This document shows, piece by piece, positions 18,041 to 29,115 of a stretch of DNA of 64,000 nucleotides. How positions within the stretch are numbered: the first letter of the stretch is position 1; the number at the start of each line of letters is the position of its first letter. A program made the translations under genes and the position numbers. The stretch spans positions 1 through 64,000 of the forward strand of contig LSBP01000012.1 of NCBI GenBank assembly GCA_001577635.1, in the 5' to 3' direction. The notes under the pieces were generated by a model. It ran no database searches. It saw only the letters and a program-made list of their open reading frames with translations, and was not told the origin of the DNA. Source of the DNA: Halomonadaceae bacterium T82-2 (GTDB lineage: Bacteria; Pseudomonadota; Gammaproteobacteria; Pseudomonadales; Halomonadaceae).

Positions 18041-18144
18041 CACGTCGGGATGCGGTCGGCCGGCGGCCGCTGCCTGCCGTGGCGCGTTCCTTTATCAGCT
18101 CCTCGCCGGCGTGGCGGGCCTGACGGGCCGCCCGGGAGGCTGCC

Positions 18145-19446
18145 GTGGGCCAGCGCAACATCTTCGTGGTCGGACTCAATGACTTCAATCGCGCGCGTCT
18201 CGAGCAGCTGCGCGGCGCGCAGGACTATCGCTTTCACGGCGTCATCGAACCCGCCGAGGTCTACGACACCGAGGTCTTTCCGATCGAGGACATGCTGTCG
18301 CGCGCCGAGGCCACGCTGCGCGACTTCGACGGCCCGGTGGACGCCATCGTCGGCTATATGGACTTTCCGGTGTCGACCATGCTGCCGCTGCTCTGCGAAC
18401 GCTTCGGCACGCGCACGGCGAGTCTCGAGAGCCTGCTCAAGTGCGAGCACAAGTACTGGAGCCGGCTGGTCCAGCGCGAGGTGATCGGCAACTACATTCC
18501 GCGCTTCACCGCCTTCGATCCCTTCGACGACGAGGCGCTGTCGAAGATCGGCCAGGCGGGGCTCTACTTCCCGTTCTTCGTCAAGCCGATCAAGTCGTCG
18601 GGCTCGCGGCTGGGCTTTCGCATCGACAGCCCCGAGGACTTCATCATGGCGACCGGGCGGCTGCGCGACGAGATCGGCCTGATCTCCGAGCCGTTCAACT
18701 TCGTCCTCGAGCAGGCCAGCCTGCCCGAGGCGGTGCGTGCCGTGGACGGCGGCCACTGCATGGCCGAAGAGATCATCGGCGGCTGGCAGTGCACGGTGGA
18801 AGGCTATGTCTTCGAGGGCGAGGTGGTGCCCTACGGCATCGTCGACTCGATCCGCTATCCGCAGGTGCTGAGCTTCTTCTGCTACCGCTATCCGTCGCGA
18901 CTGCCGGCGCGCATCCAGAGCCGGATGGAGGAACTCACCCGCACGATCATGGCCCACATTGGCTACGACAACGCGGCCTTCAACATCGAGTTCTTCTGGG
19001 ACGAGGTCCAGAACCGCATCTGGCTGCTGGAGATCAATACCCGCATCTCGCAGTCGCACTGCGACCTGTTCGAGAAGGTCGACGGTGTCAGCCATCAGCA
19101 GGTCACCGTCGACCTGGCGCTGGGCCAGCGTCCCGACATGCCTCATCGCGAGGGCGAGTACGCGGTGGCCGGCAAGTTCTTCTACCGGGTGTTCTTCGTC
19201 GACGCCACGATCGTGAGCGTTCCCGATCCCGAGGCGATCGCGGCGCTGGAGCGGCGCTTCCCCGGCACCCACATCGAGCTTCAGGTCACCCCGGGCATGC
19301 GGTTGTCGGCGCTGCCCGAGCAGGACAGCTACAGCTATGCGCTGGCGCTGGTCTGGATGGGCGCGGACAGCGACGAGGCGCTGGAGGCCAACTACGCCCG
19401 GCTGGCCGAGGAACTGGTCTTCGCGTTCGAGGACATCATCGGCTGA
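18145..19446 (+). CDS. ATP-grasp domain carboxylate ligase, cassette copy 1
   Basis: The 433-aa protein matches the ATP-grasp fold: an N-terminal Rossmann-like region (IFVVGLNDFNRARL, residues 5-18), the ATP-binding lobe with FFVKPIKSSGSRLGFRI, and the C-terminal Mg-ligating segment IEFFW...IWLLEINTRISQS. Such enzymes activate a carboxylate as acyl phosphate and join it to an amine or thiol. The substrates are unknown; I do not recognise a named pathway. The GTG start at 18145 is preceded by GGGAGG. It is followed after 36 bases by a CocE-type hydrolase. A paralogue with shared signatures such as CEHKYWSR and a LLEIN-R-S-SH block lies at 24410-25738, also followed by a hydrolase. Confidence 0.85.
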   Translation: MGQRNIFVVGLNDFNRARLEQLRGAQDYRFHGVIEPAEVYDTEVFPIEDMLSRAEATLRDFDGPVDAIVGYMDFPVSTMLPLLCERFGTRTASLESLLKCEHKYWSRLVQREVIGNYIPRFTAFDPFDDEALSKIGQAGLYFPFFVKPIKSSGSRLGFRIDSPEDFIMATGRLRDEIGLISEPFNFVLEQASLPEAVRAVDGGHCMAEEIIGGWQCTVEGYVFEGEVVPYGIVDSIRYPQVLSFFCYRYPSRLPARIQSRMEELTRTIMAHIGYDNAAFNIEFFWDEVQNRIWLLEINTRISQSHCDLFEKVDGVSHQQVTVDLALGQRPDMPHREGEYAVAGKFFYRVFFVDATIVSVPDPEAIAALERRFPGTHIELQVTPGMRLSALPEQDSYSYALALVWMGADSDEALEANYARLAEELVFAFEDIIG

Positions 19447-19482
19447 TGCCGAGGCGACAATCACACGGGGAAGGGGGAGCGT

Positions 19483-21525
19483 ATGCGCATCGTCGAGACC
19501 TATTCGCGCCGGGTTCACGAGGAGGAGACCTGGATCACCCTGAGCGACGGGTGTCGGCTGGCGGTGCGCCTGTGGCGGCCGGTCGATGCCGAGCGTCACC
19601 CGGTGCCGGCGATCCTCGAGTATCTGCCCTATCGCAAGCGTGACCTGACCGCGAGCCGTGACGCCCAGACCCATCCCTACTGGGCCGGGCACGGCTACGC
19701 CGGGGTGCGGGTGGATATCCGCGGCAGCGGCGAGTCGGACGGCGTGCTCACCGACGAATACCTGCAGCAGGAACTCGACGACGGCCTCGAGGTGCTGCGC
19801 TGGATCGCCGCGCAGCCCTGGTGCACCGGCGATGTCGGCATGGTGGGCATCTCCTGGGGCGGCTTCAACGGCCTGCAGATCGCCGCGCTGCAGCCACCCG
19901 AGCTCAAGGCGGTGATCACCCTGTGCTCGACCGACGACCGCTATGCCGACGACGTCCACCACATGGGCGGCTGCCTGCTGGGCGACAACCTCTCCTGGGC
20001 CTCGACGATGTTCGACGCCAACGCCTGCCCACCGGATCCGGCGCTGGTCGGCGAGCGCTGGCGCGAGATGTGGATGGAACGTCTCGAGGGCAGCGGGTTG
20101 TGGCTGGCCACCTGGCTGGCCCACCAGCGCCGCGACGACTACTGGAAGCACGGCTCGGTGTGCGAGGACTTCTCGCGCATTCGCTGCCCGGTCTATGCCA
20201 TCAGCGGCTGGGCCGACGGCTACTGCAATGCGGTTTTCCGGCTGCTGGACGGCCTCTCGGTGCCGCGCAAGGGGCTGGTCGGCCCCTGGGCGCACAAGTA
20301 TCCGCACCTGGGGGTTCCCGGGCCGGCGATCGGCTTTCTCCAGGAGGCGCTGCGCTGGTGGGACCACTGGCTGAAGGGCAAGGATACCGGGATCATGGAC
20401 GAACCCATGCTGCGCGTGTGGATGCAGGAATCGGTGCCGCCCTCGGCGCGCTACGACGTGCGCCCGGGACGCTGGGTCGCCGAACCTGACTGGCCGTCGC
20501 CGCGGATCGTGCCGACGCCATTCCGGCTGACCAGCGGCCACGACCTGGAGCCCGAGGTGGCGCGGATCGCTGCCGACAGCGATCTGGACGACATGCCGCT
20601 GACGATCCGCTCGCCGCTGTTCGTGGGCCTGTATGCCGGCAAGTGGTGCTCCTACAATGCGCCGCCCGACCTGCCCCACGACCAGCGCGACGAGGACGGC
20701 GGTGCGCTGATCTTCCAGACCGCGCCGCTCGAGCAGCCGCTGGAGATCTGCGGCCAGCCGGTGGTGGAGCTGGATCTGGAGGCCGATCAGCCGGTGGCGA
20801 TGGTCGCGCTGCGCCTGATCGACGTCGGCGAGGACGACAAGGCGACGCGGGTCTCCTACGGCCTGCTCAATCTGACCCATCGCGACAGCGACGCGTTTCC
20901 CGAGCCGCTGGAGCCGGGTCGGCGATACCAGGTGCGTGTCCTGCTCAAGCACATCGCCCAGCAGTTCCCCGCGGGGCATGCGATCCGCCTGTCGCTGTCG
21001 AGCAGCTACTGGCCGCTGGCCTGGCCGGCGCCGATCCCGGCCAAGCTGACCCTGCATCCGGCCGAGTGCCGGCTGGTCCTGCCGTGTCGCGAGCCGCAAC
21101 CCGCCGAGGAGGCGGCGCTGCCCGCCTTCGCCGATCCCGAGGGGGCGCCGCCGCTGGCGCGCACGCTGATCCAGCCCAGCCAGGAGGCCTGGCGGGTGAT
21201 CCGCGACCTGGGCAACGACCGCACCACCCTGGAAGTGATCAACGACGAAGGCACCTACCGCCTCGACGACATCGACCTCGAGCTCGCGGTGCGGGTCACC
21301 GAGCGCTACAGCTACGCCTACGGCAACTACGACAGCCTGAGCGGCTGGACCGAATGGCGGCGCAGCTTCGCCCGCGGCGACTGGCAGGTGCACACCGTGG
21401 CCCGCACGCTGATGACCTCGGACGCCGAGCATTTCCGCCTGCGTGCCACCCTGGACGCCTACGAGGGCGAGAGCCGGGTGTTCGCCAAGACCTGGGACGA
21501 GACGATTCCCCGCGATCTGGTGTGA
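19483..21525 (+). CDS. CocE/NonD family serine hydrolase, cassette copy 1
   Basis: The 680-aa protein is an alpha/beta hydrolase of the X-Pro dipeptidyl-peptidase/cocaine esterase class. The nucleophile elbow is GISWGG (Ser124), with Asp245 in SGWADGY and His271 in GPWAHKYP completing the triad. DIRGSGESDG (79-88) is the usual oxyanion-side loop. The C-terminal part (about 330-640) is the jelly-roll X-Pro-like domain. There is no signal peptide, so it is probably cytoplasmic. The substrate is unknown; pairing with an ATP-grasp ligase suggests it acts on an amide or ester linked to that enzyme's chemistry. It has a ribosome-binding site GGGGAG six bases before the ATG. Confidence 0.88.
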   Translation: MRIVETYSRRVHEEETWITLSDGCRLAVRLWRPVDAERHPVPAILEYLPYRKRDLTASRDAQTHPYWAGHGYAGVRVDIRGSGESDGVLTDEYLQQELDDGLEVLRWIAAQPWCTGDVGMVGISWGGFNGLQIAALQPPELKAVITLCSTDDRYADDVHHMGGCLLGDNLSWASTMFDANACPPDPALVGERWREMWMERLEGSGLWLATWLAHQRRDDYWKHGSVCEDFSRIRCPVYAISGWADGYCNAVFRLLDGLSVPRKGLVGPWAHKYPHLGVPGPAIGFLQEALRWWDHWLKGKDTGIMDEPMLRVWMQESVPPSARYDVRPGRWVAEPDWPSPRIVPTPFRLTSGHDLEPEVARIAADSDLDDMPLTIRSPLFVGLYAGKWCSYNAPPDLPHDQRDEDGGALIFQTAPLEQPLEICGQPVVELDLEADQPVAMVALRLIDVGEDDKATRVSYGLLNLTHRDSDAFPEPLEPGRRYQVRVLLKHIAQQFPAGHAIRLSLSSSYWPLAWPAPIPAKLTLHPAECRLVLPCREPQPAEEAALPAFADPEGAPPLARTLIQPSQEAWRVIRDLGNDRTTLEVINDEGTYRLDDIDLELAVRVTERYSYAYGNYDSLSGWTEWRRSFARGDWQVHTVARTLMTSDAEHFRLRATLDAYEGESRVFAKTWDETIPRDLV

Positions 21526-23100: not shown

Positions 23101-23571
23101 ATGATCGAGCGCTGGTTGCGACGCAGCCGACAGATGATTCATGTCACGGTGGTGCTGGCCATCCTGGCGGCCTTCGTGCTCTACGCTCTGGCCTGCCTGA
23201 GCCTGCTGCAGACGCTGTGGTCGCTGGCCTCAGGCGGCGTCGGGGATGGCAATACCCTCAAGGAAAGCGCCGTGGGGCTGCTGAAGATGATGGACCTGCT
23301 GCTGATCGCGGCAAGTTTTCAGATCATGGCCCACGGCATGTATCGGCTGTTCCTGCGCCCCGACTTCGAAAGCCCCGGGCCTCTGCAGGTGGCCAGTTTC
23401 ACCGAGCTCAAGCACTCGCTGGTCACGGTGGCCGGCATCGTGCTGGTGATCCTGTTCGTGGAGAACGCCGTCAAGCTGGGCGCAGGGCGGCCGATCCTCG
23501 AGCTGGGTATCGCCATTGCGCTGGTGATCGCCGCCTCGGGCTGGGCGTTCCGCTCCGGGAAGGGGCATTGA
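23101..23571 (+). CDS. UPF0114 family membrane protein (YqhA-like)
   Basis: The 156-aa product has four hydrophobic helices and the family features: KESAVGLLKMMDLLLIAASFQ, then SFTELKHSLVTVAGIVLVILFVE. The UPF0114/YqhA family has no assigned function. The ATG at 23101 follows CCGGAGGTGG; an in-frame start 9 bases earlier lacks such a site. Confidence 0.85.
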   Translation: MIERWLRRSRQMIHVTVVLAILAAFVLYALACLSLLQTLWSLASGGVGDGNTLKESAVGLLKMMDLLLIAASFQIMAHGMYRLFLRPDFESPGPLQVASFTELKHSLVTVAGIVLVILFVENAVKLGAGRPILELGIAIALVIAASGWAFRSGKGH

Positions 23572-23616
23572 CGTGATGTTGTGGCGTGGTGTGTGTCCTG
23601 CTGCTGATCTTGTCGG

Positions 23617-23636
23617 CTCCGAGGCAGGCCTCGGAG
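23617..23636. terminator. Hairpin between convergent UPF0114 gene and pseudogene remnant
   Basis: CTCCGAGG-CAGG-CCTCGGAG is a perfect 8-base stem with a 4-base loop, 45 bases after the UPF0114 stop. It lacks a T-run, so its role as a terminator is tentative. Confidence 0.4.
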
Positions 23637-23698
23637 GGCTCACAGCCAAAAGAGGGCAACGCTAAGGAATGCCTCTCTATAGCTATAGCTGCAGGGCG

Positions 23699-23810
23699 TC
23701 ACGCCAGCAGGGCATTGAGTTGCTCCACACAGGCCTGAACGACGTTTGCCGCCGCGTCGCTGTTGGATTCGGGGCATGCTGAGAGGATCGCAATGCCGGC
23801 CGCGCCAGCG
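23699..23810 (-). pseudogene. Remnant of an IclR-family regulator (C-terminal tail)
   Basis: The translated remnant reads AGIAILSACPES then NSDAAANVVQACVEQLNALL, which matches two separated parts of the intact IclR protein at 25943-26614 (AGIAILSARPETESD and AASAVKDCVERLNTLLS). The roughly 60 codons between them are missing. The upstream end is joined directly to the hydrolase pseudogene. It is therefore a doubly deleted relic of a regulator gene related to the intact one 2 kb away. Confidence 0.85.
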
Positions 23811-24375
23811 TTCGCCGACCACGGCAGGGTCCGGCGGCAGGGAGTTGTAGGCAAACATGGTGGCCGCCTAGGACAGGTTGTCACCCAGCAGGCACCCCCC
23901 ATGTAGTGCACATCATCGGCATAGCGATCATCGGTGGAGCAGACGCTGACCACGGCCTCGAGCGCCAGCGGCCAGCTGCCGGCCATTGAAGCCGCCCCAG
24001 GAAATGCCGGTCATGCCATTGAATCAGGGCTGCGCGGCGATCCATACGAGTACATCCTCGCCGTCGAGAAGTTCTTGTTCCAGGTATTCGTCATGCAGTA
24101 TTCCCTCGGAGTTGCCGCTGCCACGCGGGCCCACGCGTACCGACGCATAGCCGTGCCCGGCGAAATAATGAGGGTGGATGGCGTCCCGCCTGGCGGTGCT
24201 GTCACGCAGCCGGTAGGGGATATATTCCAGGCTCGCCGGCACGGGAGACTCGTGGGTATCTTCCGGAAGCCAGAGGCGCGCATTGAGCCGAGTTCCATCG
24301 CGCAGGGGAACGCAGGGGAATCCAGACGAGGGCACGCCGCTCCACCCCATGCGGGAATGCCGTGACGACCTTCAT
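23808..24375 (-). pseudogene. Degraded CocE/NonD hydrolase, cassette copy 2
   Basis: Fragments in several frames match the intact hydrolase at 19483-21525. The start is an ATG at 24375 (MKVVTAFPHGVE), then after a frameshift DGTRLNARLWLPED, SLEYIPYRLRDS, RGSGNSEGILHDEYLEQEL and VWIAAQP. A TGA follows where the intact copy has Trp113. The nucleophile region GISWGGFNG survives in the same frame past that stop, then further frameshifts precede CSTDDRYADDVHYMGG and PPDPAVVGERW. Homology stops abruptly at codon 193 of the intact gene, at the join to the IclR remnant; the C-terminal two thirds are absent. It lies 34 bases after the second ATP-grasp gene, the same order as in copy 1. Confidence 0.9.
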
Positions 24376-24409
24376 GACAGCGCCTGCCGGCGACCGATAT
24401 CCATCGCGC

Positions 24410-25738
24410 TCATTCCTGCTCGGCCCCTGTGTTGCGCTCAGCCGCCCGGTTTGGCCTGCGCTGCACCTCGTAGGGCAGCATGTCCTGGCAGCGTCGCAAG
24501 CGGTTGCGCAGCGCCGACTCGCTATTGGCGCCGAGAAACACTACCCCTAGCTCGTAGGAAAAGGAGTCCTGGTGTCGCAGGCGTGACAGCGACATGCCTT
24601 CATGCACGTTGCTCTCGAAGATAGCCCCCGGGAAACACGCCTCGACCTGCTGCGATTCGTCGCGCGTCGGCACGCGGCTTACCCGCCCTTCGTGGAACAC
24701 CCGAATCATCTGTTTGGCCGCCAGCCGATAGCGTCCCTGTCCGCGCGGCATTCGCGGCGGCAGGCCCAGAGCTACATCGATCATCACCTGGAAATGCGGC
24801 GCGCCATCCACCAGCTGAAACAGCGCGGCATGGGATCGGGAAAGCCGGGAGTTGATTTCCAGCAGCCAGATCCGGTCCTGCCGCCGATCATGGAAGAACT
24901 CGATGTTGAAAGGGGCATCGTCATAACCGATGTGTTCGACAAAGCGTCTTGTACACGCGACCATCCGCTCCCGCACTGACCCTGGCAGCTTCGATGGGTA
25001 GACATAGCGCGACAGCACCGACCGGTGATGCGAGTCGCGAACCGAATCCACGACGCCATAGACATGTACCCGTCCGTTCTGCACATAGCCTTCCAGCGTG
25101 TATTGCCGGCCGATGGAGATCAGGCTTTCGGCAATGCAGTGGTGGCCGGTCACGGTCGCGACGTCTCGCGGAATTTCCGCGTGGGCAGTGCTCTGTGCGA
25201 GCGGCTTGCCATAGCGCCTAATACCGGCGCGGATAACCGGCAAGACGTTGCGTAGTGTTGCGGCGTCGTCGATGCGAAAGCCGAGGTGGGAAGAATGCGC
25301 CGTGATGGGCTTGAGCCAGAAAGGGTAATTCAGCACCACCTGCCTGACGGGGTTCTCATCGAAGGGATCAATCACTTGAAAGGTGGGAACGCAGTCGGGT
25401 ACGACACGTTTCTGTTCGATTCGGCTCCAGTACTTGTGCTCGCACTGCAATATCGATTCGAGCGACGGCCCGCGCAGCCCCAGACGACGGCGCAGCAAGG
25501 GGAGCAGTACGCTAGTGGGAAAGTCCCAGTAGCTGATGATGGCATCTACCTGGTGCGGAAAGCGCGACAGCTCGTTCAGTGCTCGATCCACCAATCCATC
25601 GATGTCGTACTCATCGGTGTGCACGACCTCATCGACCGACAGCAGAGGGTGGAAAGCATAGTCATCAGCCTGCCGGAGCATTGGCATCAGCCGCTTGCCC
25701 AGAGCGTCGTAACCAATCACGAATACGTTCCAGGACAT
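24410..25738 (-). CDS. ATP-grasp domain carboxylate ligase, cassette copy 2
   Basis: The 442-aa protein is a diverged paralogue of the 18145-19446 product; both share VDAII-YWDFP/VDAIVGYMDFP, SLESxLxCEHKYWSR, a CVEGY/TLEGY motif, DAPFNIEFFHD and IWLLEINSRLSRSH. The ATP-grasp core and the Glu/Asn metal-ligand segment are intact and no frameshift is visible, so it is probably still functional although its partner hydrolase is broken. The ATG at 25738 (MSWNVFVIGYD) is preceded by GGGGAGAAAAGG. Base composition is less GC-rich than copy 1, consistent with a separate history rather than recent duplication. Confidence 0.85.
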   Translation of the reverse strand: MSWNVFVIGYDALGKRLMPMLRQADDYAFHPLLSVDEVVHTDEYDIDGLVDRALNELSRFPHQVDAIISYWDFPTSVLLPLLRRRLGLRGPSLESILQCEHKYWSRIEQKRVVPDCVPTFQVIDPFDENPVRQVVLNYPFWLKPITAHSSHLGFRIDDAATLRNVLPVIRAGIRRYGKPLAQSTAHAEIPRDVATVTGHHCIAESLISIGRQYTLEGYVQNGRVHVYGVVDSVRDSHHRSVLSRYVYPSKLPGSVRERMVACTRRFVEHIGYDDAPFNIEFFHDRRQDRIWLLEINSRLSRSHAALFQLVDGAPHFQVMIDVALGLPPRMPRGQGRYRLAAKQMIRVFHEGRVSRVPTRDESQQVEACFPGAIFESNVHEGMSLSRLRHQDSFSYELGVVFLGANSESALRNRLRRCQDMLPYEVQRRPNRAAERNTGAEQE

Positions 25739-25942
25739 GCCTTTTCTCCCCTGTCTAGCCATCGTGTAACGGTGTGGAGCTATAAAGGATGGCATTCGAG
25801 GCCAGGGCTTCCTTGATGCTGGTCAGCACACGAATGGATGACGGCGGGCGGCAAGCAGGGAGGCGGGAGAGTCGGTGAGGCCGGGGGCGATTCACGTCAC
25901 TTGTTGGCCGGCCCCTATCCCGACGTCTGTTGCTCTATCGCG

Positions 25943-26766: not shown

Positions 26767-29115
26767 ATGCTCACGCCTCGGACCTCGCCGCGTGCCGACG
26801 AAGGACGTTGTCCTTTTCGCGACGCCGCCTCTCATGCCTCCGATGTGGCGCCGAACGGCTGCCCGGTATCGCCGCAGGCGGCATCGTTCGATCCCTTCGA
26901 AAGCGACTATCAGCTGGATCCGGCGGAGGCGCTGCGCTGGTCCCGCGATCAGGAGCCGGTCTTCTACAGCCCCAAACTCGGCTACTGGGTGGTCAGCCGT
27001 TACGCCGATGTGAAGGCCATCTTCCGCGACAACCGAACGTTCTCGCCGTCCATTGCCCTGGAGAAGATCACGCCGACCACCCAGGCTGCGCAGGACACGC
27101 TCCAGCGCTACGGCTATGCCATGAACCGCACGCTGGTCAACGAGGACGAACCGGCCCACATGGAGCGCCGCCGCGCCCTGATGAAGTCGTTCGAGCTGGA
27201 GGAGCTGGCCCATCACGAACCCATGGTGCGGCGCCTGACGCGCGAGTATCTGGATCGGCTGGTCGACAAGGGCGAGGCGGATCTGGTCGATGAGATGCTC
27301 TGGGAGATCCCGCTGACCGTGGCGCTGCACTTTCTCGGCGTGCCCGAGGAAGACATGGACACGCTTCGCGAGTACTCCATCGCCCACACCGTGAACACCT
27401 GGGGCCGGCCCTCGCCGGACGAGCAGGTCGCCGTCGCCGAGGCGGTGGGCAAGTTCTGGCAGTATGCCGGCCAGGTGCTGGAGAAGATGCGGCAGGACCC
27501 TGCCGGCCATGGCTGGATGAAATACGCCATTCGTCGCCAGCAGGAACTGCCGGAGGTGGTCACCGACTCCTACCTGCATTCGATGATGATGGCCGGCATC
27601 GTCGCCGCCCACGAGACCACGGCACACGCCACCGCCAACATGCTGCGCCTGCTGCTGGAAAACCGCGCGGTCTGGGAGGATCTGTGTGCCAACCCGTCCC
27701 TGATTCCCAATGCCGTCGAGGAGTGCCTGCGTCTGTCGGGGTCGGTGGCCGCCTGGCGGCGTATCGCCACGACCGATACACGGATCGGCGACGTGGCGAT
27801 CCCCGAGGGGGCGAAGCTGTTGATCGTCAGTGCTTCGGCCAACCATGACGGCCGGCACTTCGAGAATCCCGATGAGCTGGACATCTATCGGGACAACACC
27901 ACCGATCATCTGACCTTCGGTTACGGCAGCCACCAGTGCATGGGCAAGAATCTCGCTCGCCTGGAGATGCGGATCTTTCTCGAAGAATTCACGCGCCGCC
28001 TGCCGCACATGACCCTGGTTCCCGACCAGACATTCACCTTCGTGCCCAACACCTCGTTCCGTGGCCCGGAGCATCTGTGGGTACGCTGGAACCCGACCCG
28101 GAACCCCGAACGCCGCGACGGCTCGCTACGGGAGCAGGGGCGTGATTTCCCGCTGGGCGCGCCCTCCCGGCGCGATGCCGAGCGGGAGGCCGTGGTGACT
28201 CAGGTCATCCACGAGACGCCCGACGTCATCCGCCTGGTGCTGGAAGATCCGCGCGGGCGACCACTGCCGCGCTGGACGCCCGGCTCACACATTGACCTGG
28301 CCGTGGGCGACGTCACGCGCAAGTATTCCCTGTGCGGCGACCCGGACGACGAGTATCGCCTGGAGGTCGCCATCCGCCGGGAAGCGCCGGGGCGGGGCGG
28401 CTCCCGCTACATCCATGACACGGTCAAGCCGCAGACCCGGGTACGTCTGCGGGGCCCGCGCAACCATTTCCGGCTGGACGAGACTGCCGACGACTACCTG
28501 CTGATCGCCGGTGGCATCGGCATCACCCCGATCATCGCCATGGCGGATCGACTCAAGCGGCTTGGCAAGCGTTACACCATCCACTACGGGGGGCGTTCCC
28601 GGGGCTCCATGCCCTTGCTGGCGCGACTGAAGCGGGACCATGGCGATCGGCTGTGCCTGTATCCGGCAGACGAGGGGCGGCGTCTCGATCTACCGGCCGT
28701 CGTGGGCGGACGTGGCGAGGCCCAGGTCTATGCCTGTGGCCCGGCGCGTCTGCTCGATGCGCTGGCGGAGCTCACCCGGGACGCTTCGGACGCCATCCAT
28801 GTCGAGCACTTCAGCGCGAGTCACGCGATCCTCGATCCCCGCCAGGAGCAGGCCTTCGAGGTGGAACTCAGCGACTCCGAACTGACCGTGCCCGTAGCCG
28901 CCGACCAGACCGTGCTGCAGGCGCTGCGCGCGGTCGGTGTCGACGTGCCCAGCGACTGTGAAGAGGGGCTGTGCGGCACCTGCGAGGTAGCCGTCATGGC
29001 GGGCGACGTGGATCACCGTGACAAGGTTCTGAGCGCCGACGAGCGAACCGCCAACCGGCGCATGATGACCTGCTGCTCCCGTGCGAAGCGCGGCAAGCTC
29101 GTGCTGGGACTCTAG
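26767..29115 (+). CDS. Self-sufficient cytochrome P450 fused to reductase and [2Fe-2S] ferredoxin (CYP116B-like)
   Basis: The 782-aa protein is a single-chain class VII monooxygenase. The P450 domain (about 30-440) shows the I-helix AAHETTAH near 281 and the heme loop FGYGSHQCMG with Cys391. The phthalate-dioxygenase-reductase-like FMN/NAD(P)H part (about 470-690) shows RKYSLCGDP, LIAGGIGITPIIAM and YACGPARLLDAL. The C-terminal ferredoxin has Cys731, Cys736, Cys739 and Cys769 in the plant-type spacing. Known relatives (P450RhF group) hydroxylate or dealkylate aromatic and xenobiotic molecules. It lies between a divergent IclR regulator and a TRAP transporter, so the substrate is probably imported by that transporter. 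Confidence 0.95.
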   Translation: MLTPRTSPRADEGRCPFRDAASHASDVAPNGCPVSPQAASFDPFESDYQLDPAEALRWSRDQEPVFYSPKLGYWVVSRYADVKAIFRDNRTFSPSIALEKITPTTQAAQDTLQRYGYAMNRTLVNEDEPAHMERRRALMKSFELEELAHHEPMVRRLTREYLDRLVDKGEADLVDEMLWEIPLTVALHFLGVPEEDMDTLREYSIAHTVNTWGRPSPDEQVAVAEAVGKFWQYAGQVLEKMRQDPAGHGWMKYAIRRQQELPEVVTDSYLHSMMMAGIVAAHETTAHATANMLRLLLENRAVWEDLCANPSLIPNAVEECLRLSGSVAAWRRIATTDTRIGDVAIPEGAKLLIVSASANHDGRHFENPDELDIYRDNTTDHLTFGYGSHQCMGKNLARLEMRIFLEEFTRRLPHMTLVPDQTFTFVPNTSFRGPEHLWVRWNPTRNPERRDGSLREQGRDFPLGAPSRRDAEREAVVTQVIHETPDVIRLVLEDPRGRPLPRWTPGSHIDLAVGDVTRKYSLCGDPDDEYRLEVAIRREAPGRGGSRYIHDTVKPQTRVRLRGPRNHFRLDETADDYLLIAGGIGITPIIAMADRLKRLGKRYTIHYGGRSRGSMPLLARLKRDHGDRLCLYPADEGRRLDLPAVVGGRGEAQVYACGPARLLDALAELTRDASDAIHVEHFSASHAILDPRQEQAFEVELSDSELTVPVAADQTVLQALRAVGVDVPSDCEEGLCGTCEVAVMAGDVDHRDKVLSADERTANRRMMTCCSRAKRGKLVLGL

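Follow-up and report, generated by a model that had tools for sequence, protein, structure and literature searches.

The LIG and HYD genes of the window

The locus studied here lies in a 64,000-nucleotide stretch of contig LSBP01000012.1 from Halomonadaceae bacterium T82-2, and this whole stretch is called the window below. It stands on contig C5 of a 3.42 Mb genome (G000, 99.88% complete) whose genus label is common to genomes G393 and G333. Two neighbouring genes on the forward strand encode an ATP-grasp ligase, designated LIG, and a serine hydrolase of the S15/CocE-NonD type, designated HYD (Table 1). The original prediction, made from the DNA letters, had described a 433-amino-acid (aa) ATP-grasp enzyme followed after 36 bases by a 680-aa hydrolase as a candidate two-gene system, and this arrangement was confirmed by the open reading frames (ORFs) and the family matches, with both genes intact and the 36-base spacing as described. 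The ribosome-binding sequence of HYD is a purine-rich G/A run ending at 19479. A sigma-70 promoter scan found none, and two terminator-like sites lie 5' of LIG versus 1.0 expected.

Table 1 Positions of the genes and features discussed (window coordinates unless a locus is named)
Feature	Position	Strand	Basis
Ribosome-binding sequence GGGAGG, 5 bases 5' of the LIG start	18134..18139	+	sequence
LIG, ATP-grasp ligase, 433 aa, GTG start, without EctC extension	18145..19446	+	ORF, domain match, alignment
HYD, S15/CocE-NonD hydrolase, 680 aa, carrying a PepX_C domain and, at the C-terminus, an additional all-beta part (about residues 560-676)	19483..21525	+	
Codon of catalytic Ser124, HYD	19852..19854	+	computed from ORF; motif GISWGG
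Codon of catalytic Asp245, HYD	20215..20217	+	computed from ORF; motif GWADG
Codon of catalytic His271, HYD	20293..20295	+	computed from ORF; motif GPWAH
Segment without counterpart in closest relative G357, about 2.4 kb, probable insertion, ends approximate	23565..25937		
63-base copy of IclR 3' end near the left edge of the segment, with 87% identity to that of the relative	23697..23759	-	
Pseudo-HYD, remnant of HYD residues 18-194 of 680, with stops and shifts and a cut end	23802..24311	-	
LIG2, intact ATP-grasp ligase, 461 aa, 43% identical to LIG, 64% to best relative among loci examined	24410..25795	-	
Intact IclR-family regulator, other edge of the segment	25943..26644	-	
EctC-LIG fusions	L083:14862-16595; L085:9527-11281; L086:9605-11290; L087:9581-11281	L083 on -	

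LIG matched the ATP-grasp_4 family with 40.3 bits (cut-off 27), and K147, E208, E282, E296 and N298, which we take to have ATP/Mg roles, were invariant across a 32-row LIG alignment; the protein thus combines the ATP-grasp fold with the conserved ATP/Mg residues. In comparisons of its AlphaFold2 model (predicted local distance difference test, pLDDT, 93.2), the top fold match was the L-amino-acid ligase BL00235 (3vot_B; Z 31.4, 3.2 Å over 370 residues), and the L-amino-acid ligases BacD (3vmm, Z 28.0) and RizA (4wd3, Z 27.9) also appeared in the list, where absence of a Protein Data Bank family does not exclude that family. A LIG sequence profile found 3vot as well (E 3.4e-6), with chains of urea amidolyase, carbamoyl-phosphate synthase and biotin carboxylase ranking above it over a shorter stretch. 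TIGR03103 (N-acetylglutaminylglutamine synthetase) was not among the family matches of LIG, listed up to E 0.01. Since LIG is nearest in fold to the dipeptide-forming L-amino-acid ligases, an amide-forming, dipeptide-type reaction appears likeliest, a fold being no proof of chemistry. Arginyl dipeptides are described as products of RizA (PMC9321006).

HYD matched Peptidase_S15 (234.9), PepX_C (156.1) and TIGR00976 CocE_NonD (237.1, cut-off 66.3), and with these domains and a Ser-Asp-His triad it belongs to the CocE/NonD (S15) hydrolases. The triad Ser124/Asp245/His271, which had been called intact from the translation, aligns with the motifs of cocaine esterase (CocE) and is kept in a 20-row HYD alignment except in L089, which has Ala for Ser; row L076 ends before the His. 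By model comparison HYD shares its fold with cocaine esterase, amino-ester hydrolases and X-Pro peptidases; the model, which has a mean pLDDT of 76 and is weak around the active site, shows an additional all-beta part at the C-terminus. Tyr50 stands at the place of Tyr44 of CocE, to which HYD is 21-22% identical. The HYD with Ala at the catalytic Ser (L089:7548-9599) comes from a Gemmatimonadetes metagenome-assembled genome, next to a LIG-LIG fusion in which two LIG form a single open frame of 927 codons.

Both genes of the window are under purifying selection despite the absence of the cyanophycin synthetase CphA from the genome. Against G393 and G333, which also lack CphA, the ratio of nonsynonymous to synonymous divergence (dN/dS) was 0.145 and 0.178 for LIG and 0.117 and 0.148 for HYD, respectively. 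For HYD it was 0.067 against the closest relative, G357, in which LIG is 100% and HYD 98% identical to the window; the changes between the two LIG genes are too few for a useful dN/dS. In the same comparison (locus L121), synonymous divergence (dS) was 0.013 for LIG and 0.22 for the adjoining HYD, a contrast that suggests a recent recombination tract across LIG.

Conservation of the pair and its second copy

Scanning the collection with a LIG alignment of eight rows gave at least 541 confirmed stretches, the best 80 of which are the named loci used here. They come from Halomonadaceae, Rhodobacteraceae and relatives, Salinisphaera, Desulfobacterales, Nitriliruptoraceae, Gemmatimonadetes, Spirochaetaceae, Balneolales and Cyanobacteria. 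HYD lay downstream of LIG on the same strand within 2 kb in 74 of the 80 loci and within 300 bases in 72, at a median gap of 52 bases, a pairing far above chance. It was missed in six loci (L059, L060, L063, L065, and L077 and L088, which stop just after LIG); in the three genomes checked, HYD was found elsewhere for L063 and L065 and not at all for L059. Seven loci carry two LIG genes, of which six show one HYD and the seventh (L088) stops after the second LIG. Where both genes were near complete (68 loci), the distances of LIG and those of HYD were correlated (r 0.80, 0/2000 permutations as high), as would be expected from joint descent, and species history alone could also produce such a correlation.

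In a sample of 201 genomes of the window's family, LIG genes fell into LIG1 (at least 71% identity) and LIG2 (at most 49% identity). LIG1 occurred in 80 genomes, with HYD adjacent in 79/80 among the HYD matches listed. For LIG2 there were 57 matches in 50 genomes, with HYD adjacent in 47/57 among the matches listed and in 48/57 when G440 (L104) is counted. The remaining LIG2 cases comprise the dead copy of the window, G414, in which a contig edge cuts off the downstream side, two fragments at contig starts in G413, three loci with no HYD in the stretch read (L102, L103, L116), G473:C11 without a listed HYD neighbour, and G461 (L115), where a gene that looks transposase-like from its protein start lies between LIG2 and HYD. 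In the LIG tree, in which several deep nodes are weak, the CphA-linked Rhodobacteraceae/Desulfobacteraceae clade joined the Halomonadaceae LIG1 clade with support 0.71, and LIG2 and the Salinisphaera LIG genes fell outside this group. Twelve plasmid records had a LIG-like match, and the annotated stretch of the two examined (Sphingobium, 36%; Paraburkholderia, 33%) contained no CocE-type gene.

The company of HYD paralogues bears on the hydrolase side of the pair. Four single HYD paralogues without LIG were read, and genes for a dipeptide/oligopeptide ABC transporter adjoin three of them (L166, L167, L169), as tested on several transporter parts in L166 and L169 and on the solute-binding protein in L167. 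On the other side of the L166 paralogue, one gene off, are genes for AstB, the succinylarginine dihydrolase of arginine catabolism, and for an aldehyde dehydrogenase; in L168 a cytochrome P450 (P450) gene adjoins the paralogue. A gene resembling D-Ala-D-Ala ligase, again an ATP-grasp type, adjoins the divergent HYD3/HYD4 pair in 9/9 loci read (L120 and L158-L165, all from the window's family). Because paralogues adjoin peptide transporters, and because of the HYD3/HYD4 loci, the HYD line would seem to be a peptidase by its gene company, and it pairs with ATP-grasp enzymes more than once. An M14 peptidase gene was seen in four of the nine HYD3/HYD4 loci.

It had been argued that the same pair recurs in the same order at 23808-25738 of the window and that independent retention implies joint work of the two enzymes. 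The ligase of that second copy, LIG2, is indeed intact, but the copy runs on the minus strand and its hydrolase is a dead fragment lying in a segment without counterpart in G357, so it gives no independent proof of retained pairing and was rejected as such. Among the loci examined, the best relatives of LIG2 are LIG2 genes of other family members, several with a complete HYD, and it is likely that LIG2 came as part of a pair whose hydrolase has died since. The ends of the segment are approximate because about 130 bases of G357 at the insertion place are also unmatched. The idea of a conserved ligase and hydrolase module is nevertheless strongly supported by the comparative data, without the second-copy argument and not as a free-standing system, as the following section describes.

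Linkage to cyanophycin genes

Descriptions of cyanophycin metabolism usually comprise CphA, cyanophycinase and isoaspartyl dipeptidases. A check proposed earlier, of how often the two families adjoin and which third genes accompany them, led to the same set: besides HYD, neighbour clustering recovered CphA (TIGR02068, 1148.5 bits, cut-off 850), cyanophycinase CphB (TIGR02069), isoaspartyl dipeptidase IadA (TIGR01975) and beta-aspartyl peptidase IaaA. CphA was present in 30/80 loci (17/55 from Halomonadaceae and 13/25 others), accompanied by CphB in 29 and by IadA or IaaA in 25 of the 30. Outside Halomonadaceae a frequent order was cphB-cphA-LIG-HYD, often with a divergent iaaA, and the order cphB-cphA-LIG(-HYD) was seen in Rhodobacteraceae, Desulfobacteraceae and Ferruginivarius loci.

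In the 201 family genomes, CphA exceeded its cut-off in 56, and LIG1 was present in 56/56, with HYD adjacent in 55 of them among the HYD matches listed (the exception being G343). LIG1 occurred without CphA in 24 genomes, and CphA in 0/25 of the genomes with LIG2 only. The co-occurrence of CphA and LIG1 gave a Fisher p of 5.9e-31, uncorrected for descent, and by genus the counts were 11/0/2/11 of 24 (p 3.2e-5, uncorrected for phylogeny). CphA lay within 3 kb of LIG1 in 23 genomes and elsewhere in 33, and physical linkage alone therefore does not explain the rule. A second family was sampled with 295 genomes, about one per genus, among them G692, which an identical sequence shows to be the Rhodobacteraceae genome that carries L062. 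Nine of these carried a close LIG (64-69% identity); in 9/9 CphA lay upstream at a distance of 98-131 bases, measured from match end to match end (p 1.2e-12), and HYD followed LIG in the three of the nine that were read (L146, L147, L153).

The window genome itself contains no CphA over the cut-off and no cyanophycinase, and hence no cyanophycin cluster, and the link of its pair to cyanophycin is through the homologues that stand beside CphA elsewhere. At locus L138 of G403, which is not among the CphA genomes, a 272-aa gene of the IadA cluster adjoins LIG-HYD with no CphB in the stretch; this looks like a case in which the cyanophycin genes were lost and the pair was kept. A second kind of cyanophycin cluster was seen in L148-L150 and L152, where a Mur-ligase-like gene (about 580-610 aa) comes after a distant CphA, and the stretch read there contained neither LIG nor HYD.

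Interpretation and comparison with known systems

From the families, the pairing, the CphA linkage and the purifying selection described above, we infer the chemistry, substrate class and storage role of the pair as follows. As a synthesis and recycling pair, LIG and HYD would make and recover a small amino-acid amide in the Arg/Asp nitrogen economy, a role linked to cyanophycin yet separable from it; we place about even confidence in this explanation. LIG would activate a carboxylate with ATP as an acyl phosphate and join it to an amine, as in the L-amino-acid ligases; its product would most likely be a di- or tripeptide containing arginine and/or aspartate. HYD, a predicted serine peptidase of the S15/CocE fold, would later cleave this product or another peptide encountered along that route. 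The ligase of many halophiles is part of the cyanophycin gene set (CphA, CphB, IadA/IaaA) and probably feeds, drains or supplements the Arg/Asp store, and in the window genome the pair would work without cyanophycin as its soluble counterpart. A bolder form of this proposal is possible though tentative: the pair may be an unnamed soluble counterpart of cyanophycin, in which the ligase makes a small peptide that contains Arg or Asp (or is related to ectoine) and serves as nitrogen store and/or solute, to be recovered by a dedicated S15 hydrolase. It would then be the obligatory partner of one halophile CphA clade, with an EctC-derived domain regulating or feeding the ligase in Salinisphaeraceae.

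Several findings weigh against the synthesis and recycling explanation. An entry called phosphoribosylglycinamide synthetase (4dim, Z 29.2) and PurK entries (28.3) rank second and third in the fold list of LIG, PurT (Z 26.8) and biotin carboxylases (26.0) are also close, and LIG reached no NCBIfam equivalog. LIG occurs without an adjacent HYD (L059, L060, L063, L065), and HYD, found in 143 of the 201 family genomes versus 105 for LIG, also works alone, as these counts indicate. The co-occurrence tests carry no correction for phylogeny, and three genomes whose CphA-like matches stay under the cut-off (G323, G434, G468) are absent from the set with LIG. CphA exceeded the cut-off in 18 second-family genomes, 9 of which lack LIG; four of these were read, and they carry a distant CphA (39-42% identity), with the Mur-ligase-like gene behind it in L148-L150 and CphA alone in L151. 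In a phylum sample of 299 genomes, LIG was present in 9 and CphA in 19, with both only in G086. This single shared genome ruled out a general CphA-LIG link, and the rule is therefore a property of one CphA/LIG clade.

A link to osmolytes is the first alternative: in halophiles the module would make or use an osmolyte amide, related to ectoine or not, and its tie to cyanophycin would come from a shared Asp/Arg supply. An EctC-like domain over the PF06339 cut-off is N-terminal to one LIG in 4/4 Salinisphaeraceae loci, in stop-free frames of 562-624 codons, and ectoine genes flank the module in L153 and in L062/L146, one region counted twice. The named carriers are mostly halophile or saline-lake genomes, but this bias may stem from the query's own family. 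The iron ligands of ectoine synthase are Glu-57, Tyr-84 and His-92 (PMC6344544); the fused domain keeps the Glu and Tyr, but has Ile or Val for the His in 4/4 and so lacks the three-ligand set of ectoine synthase. Because of this loss, it probably binds a ligand rather than makes ectoine, and ordinary EctC genes are also present in the four fusion genomes. Matches to EctA, EctB and aspartokinase at E 1e-20 were confined to L062, L146 and L153 among about 150 partly overlapping loci. We regard this alternative as unlikely.

A second alternative, which we hold to be quite unlikely, sees in HYD one more isoaspartyl dipeptidase, acting on the beta-Asp-Arg that cyanophycin yields, with LIG as helper or bystander. 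For one CphA1-cyanophycinase cluster, Sharon and Schmeing suggested that a gene with weak similarity to cocaine esterase may encode an isoaspartyl dipeptidase (PMC10206079); the main text of that article names no ligase with this gene and does not contain the word ligase. Neither IadA nor IaaA was found in 5 of the 30 CphA loci within the stretch examined, but one of the two is already present in the other 25. HYD is, moreover, under purifying selection in a genome without CphA over the cut-off or cyanophycinase, and the ATP-consuming partner adjacent in 79/80 cases would go unexplained.

It is improbable that CphA receives primers or capped starters from LIG, with HYD as the enzyme that trims them. 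The operon order cphB-cphA-LIG(-HYD) in the three groups named above would fit such a role, but all 30 CphA proteins of these loci carry the motif Cx19HxxEH, described as the primer-making motif of CphA (PMC9262961), and 24 family genomes keep LIG1 although they lack CphA. It is very improbable that the pair serves a dispensable secondary-metabolite route involving a P450. P450 genes adjoin HYD in L113 and L168, and the window has a P450-reductase fusion at 26767-29115, but in G357, which lacks LIG2, that P450 still adjoins IclR, and no P450 was among the ten recurrent neighbour clusters identified in the 80 loci, other neighbours not having been scanned.

The ligase-hydrolase pair, for which we retain the synthesis and recycling explanation, is a real and widely conserved module, unnamed as far as the open-licence literature shows. 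Searches of that literature returned no paper on ATP-grasp with CocE NonD, peptidase S15 or ectoine synthase (subscription papers may differ), and broader searches found the pair named in no title or abstract start. The earlier statement that no named pathway contains exactly this pair stands to this extent, but the recurrent companions CphA, cyanophycinase and isoaspartyl (di)peptidases place the module near the cyanophycin pathway. The presence of the ligase in 56/56 CphA genomes, and right behind cphA in 9/9 second-family ligase genomes, suggests an overlooked step or product of cyanophycin metabolism, and an assigned role would cover many genes annotated merely as 'ATP-grasp' and 'CocE/NonD hydrolase'.

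Among known enzymes, BL00235 (3vot), BacD/YwfE and RizA are the nearest solved folds to LIG (Z 27.5-31.4), 3vot being reached by sequence profile as well, but they are only 15-16% identical to LIG, which is known here from its sequence and model, and these L-amino-acid ligases are not known to have an S15 partner. HYD resembles cocaine esterase, alpha-amino-acid ester hydrolase and X-Pro dipeptidyl peptidase (S15) in fold, triad, PepX_C and Tyr, and differs from them in its extra C-terminal beta part (in the model), its 21-22% identity to CocE and its partner ligase. The N-acetylglutaminylglutamine amide (NAGGN) osmolyte system combines ATP-grasp dipeptide synthesis and a peptidase in one gene set, and LIG-HYD would likewise be an ATP-grasp synthetase plus a peptidase; unlike that system, LIG has no TIGR03103 match and no amidotransferase partner was among the neighbours identified. 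The cyanophycin system differs in that LIG is a single ATP-grasp enzyme without the Mur-ligase part, HYD is of the S15 rather than the S51 family, and the window genome is without CphA over the cut-off or CphB, but it too unites a peptide synthetase with its peptidase for Arg/Asp, and homologues of LIG and HYD lie within such clusters.

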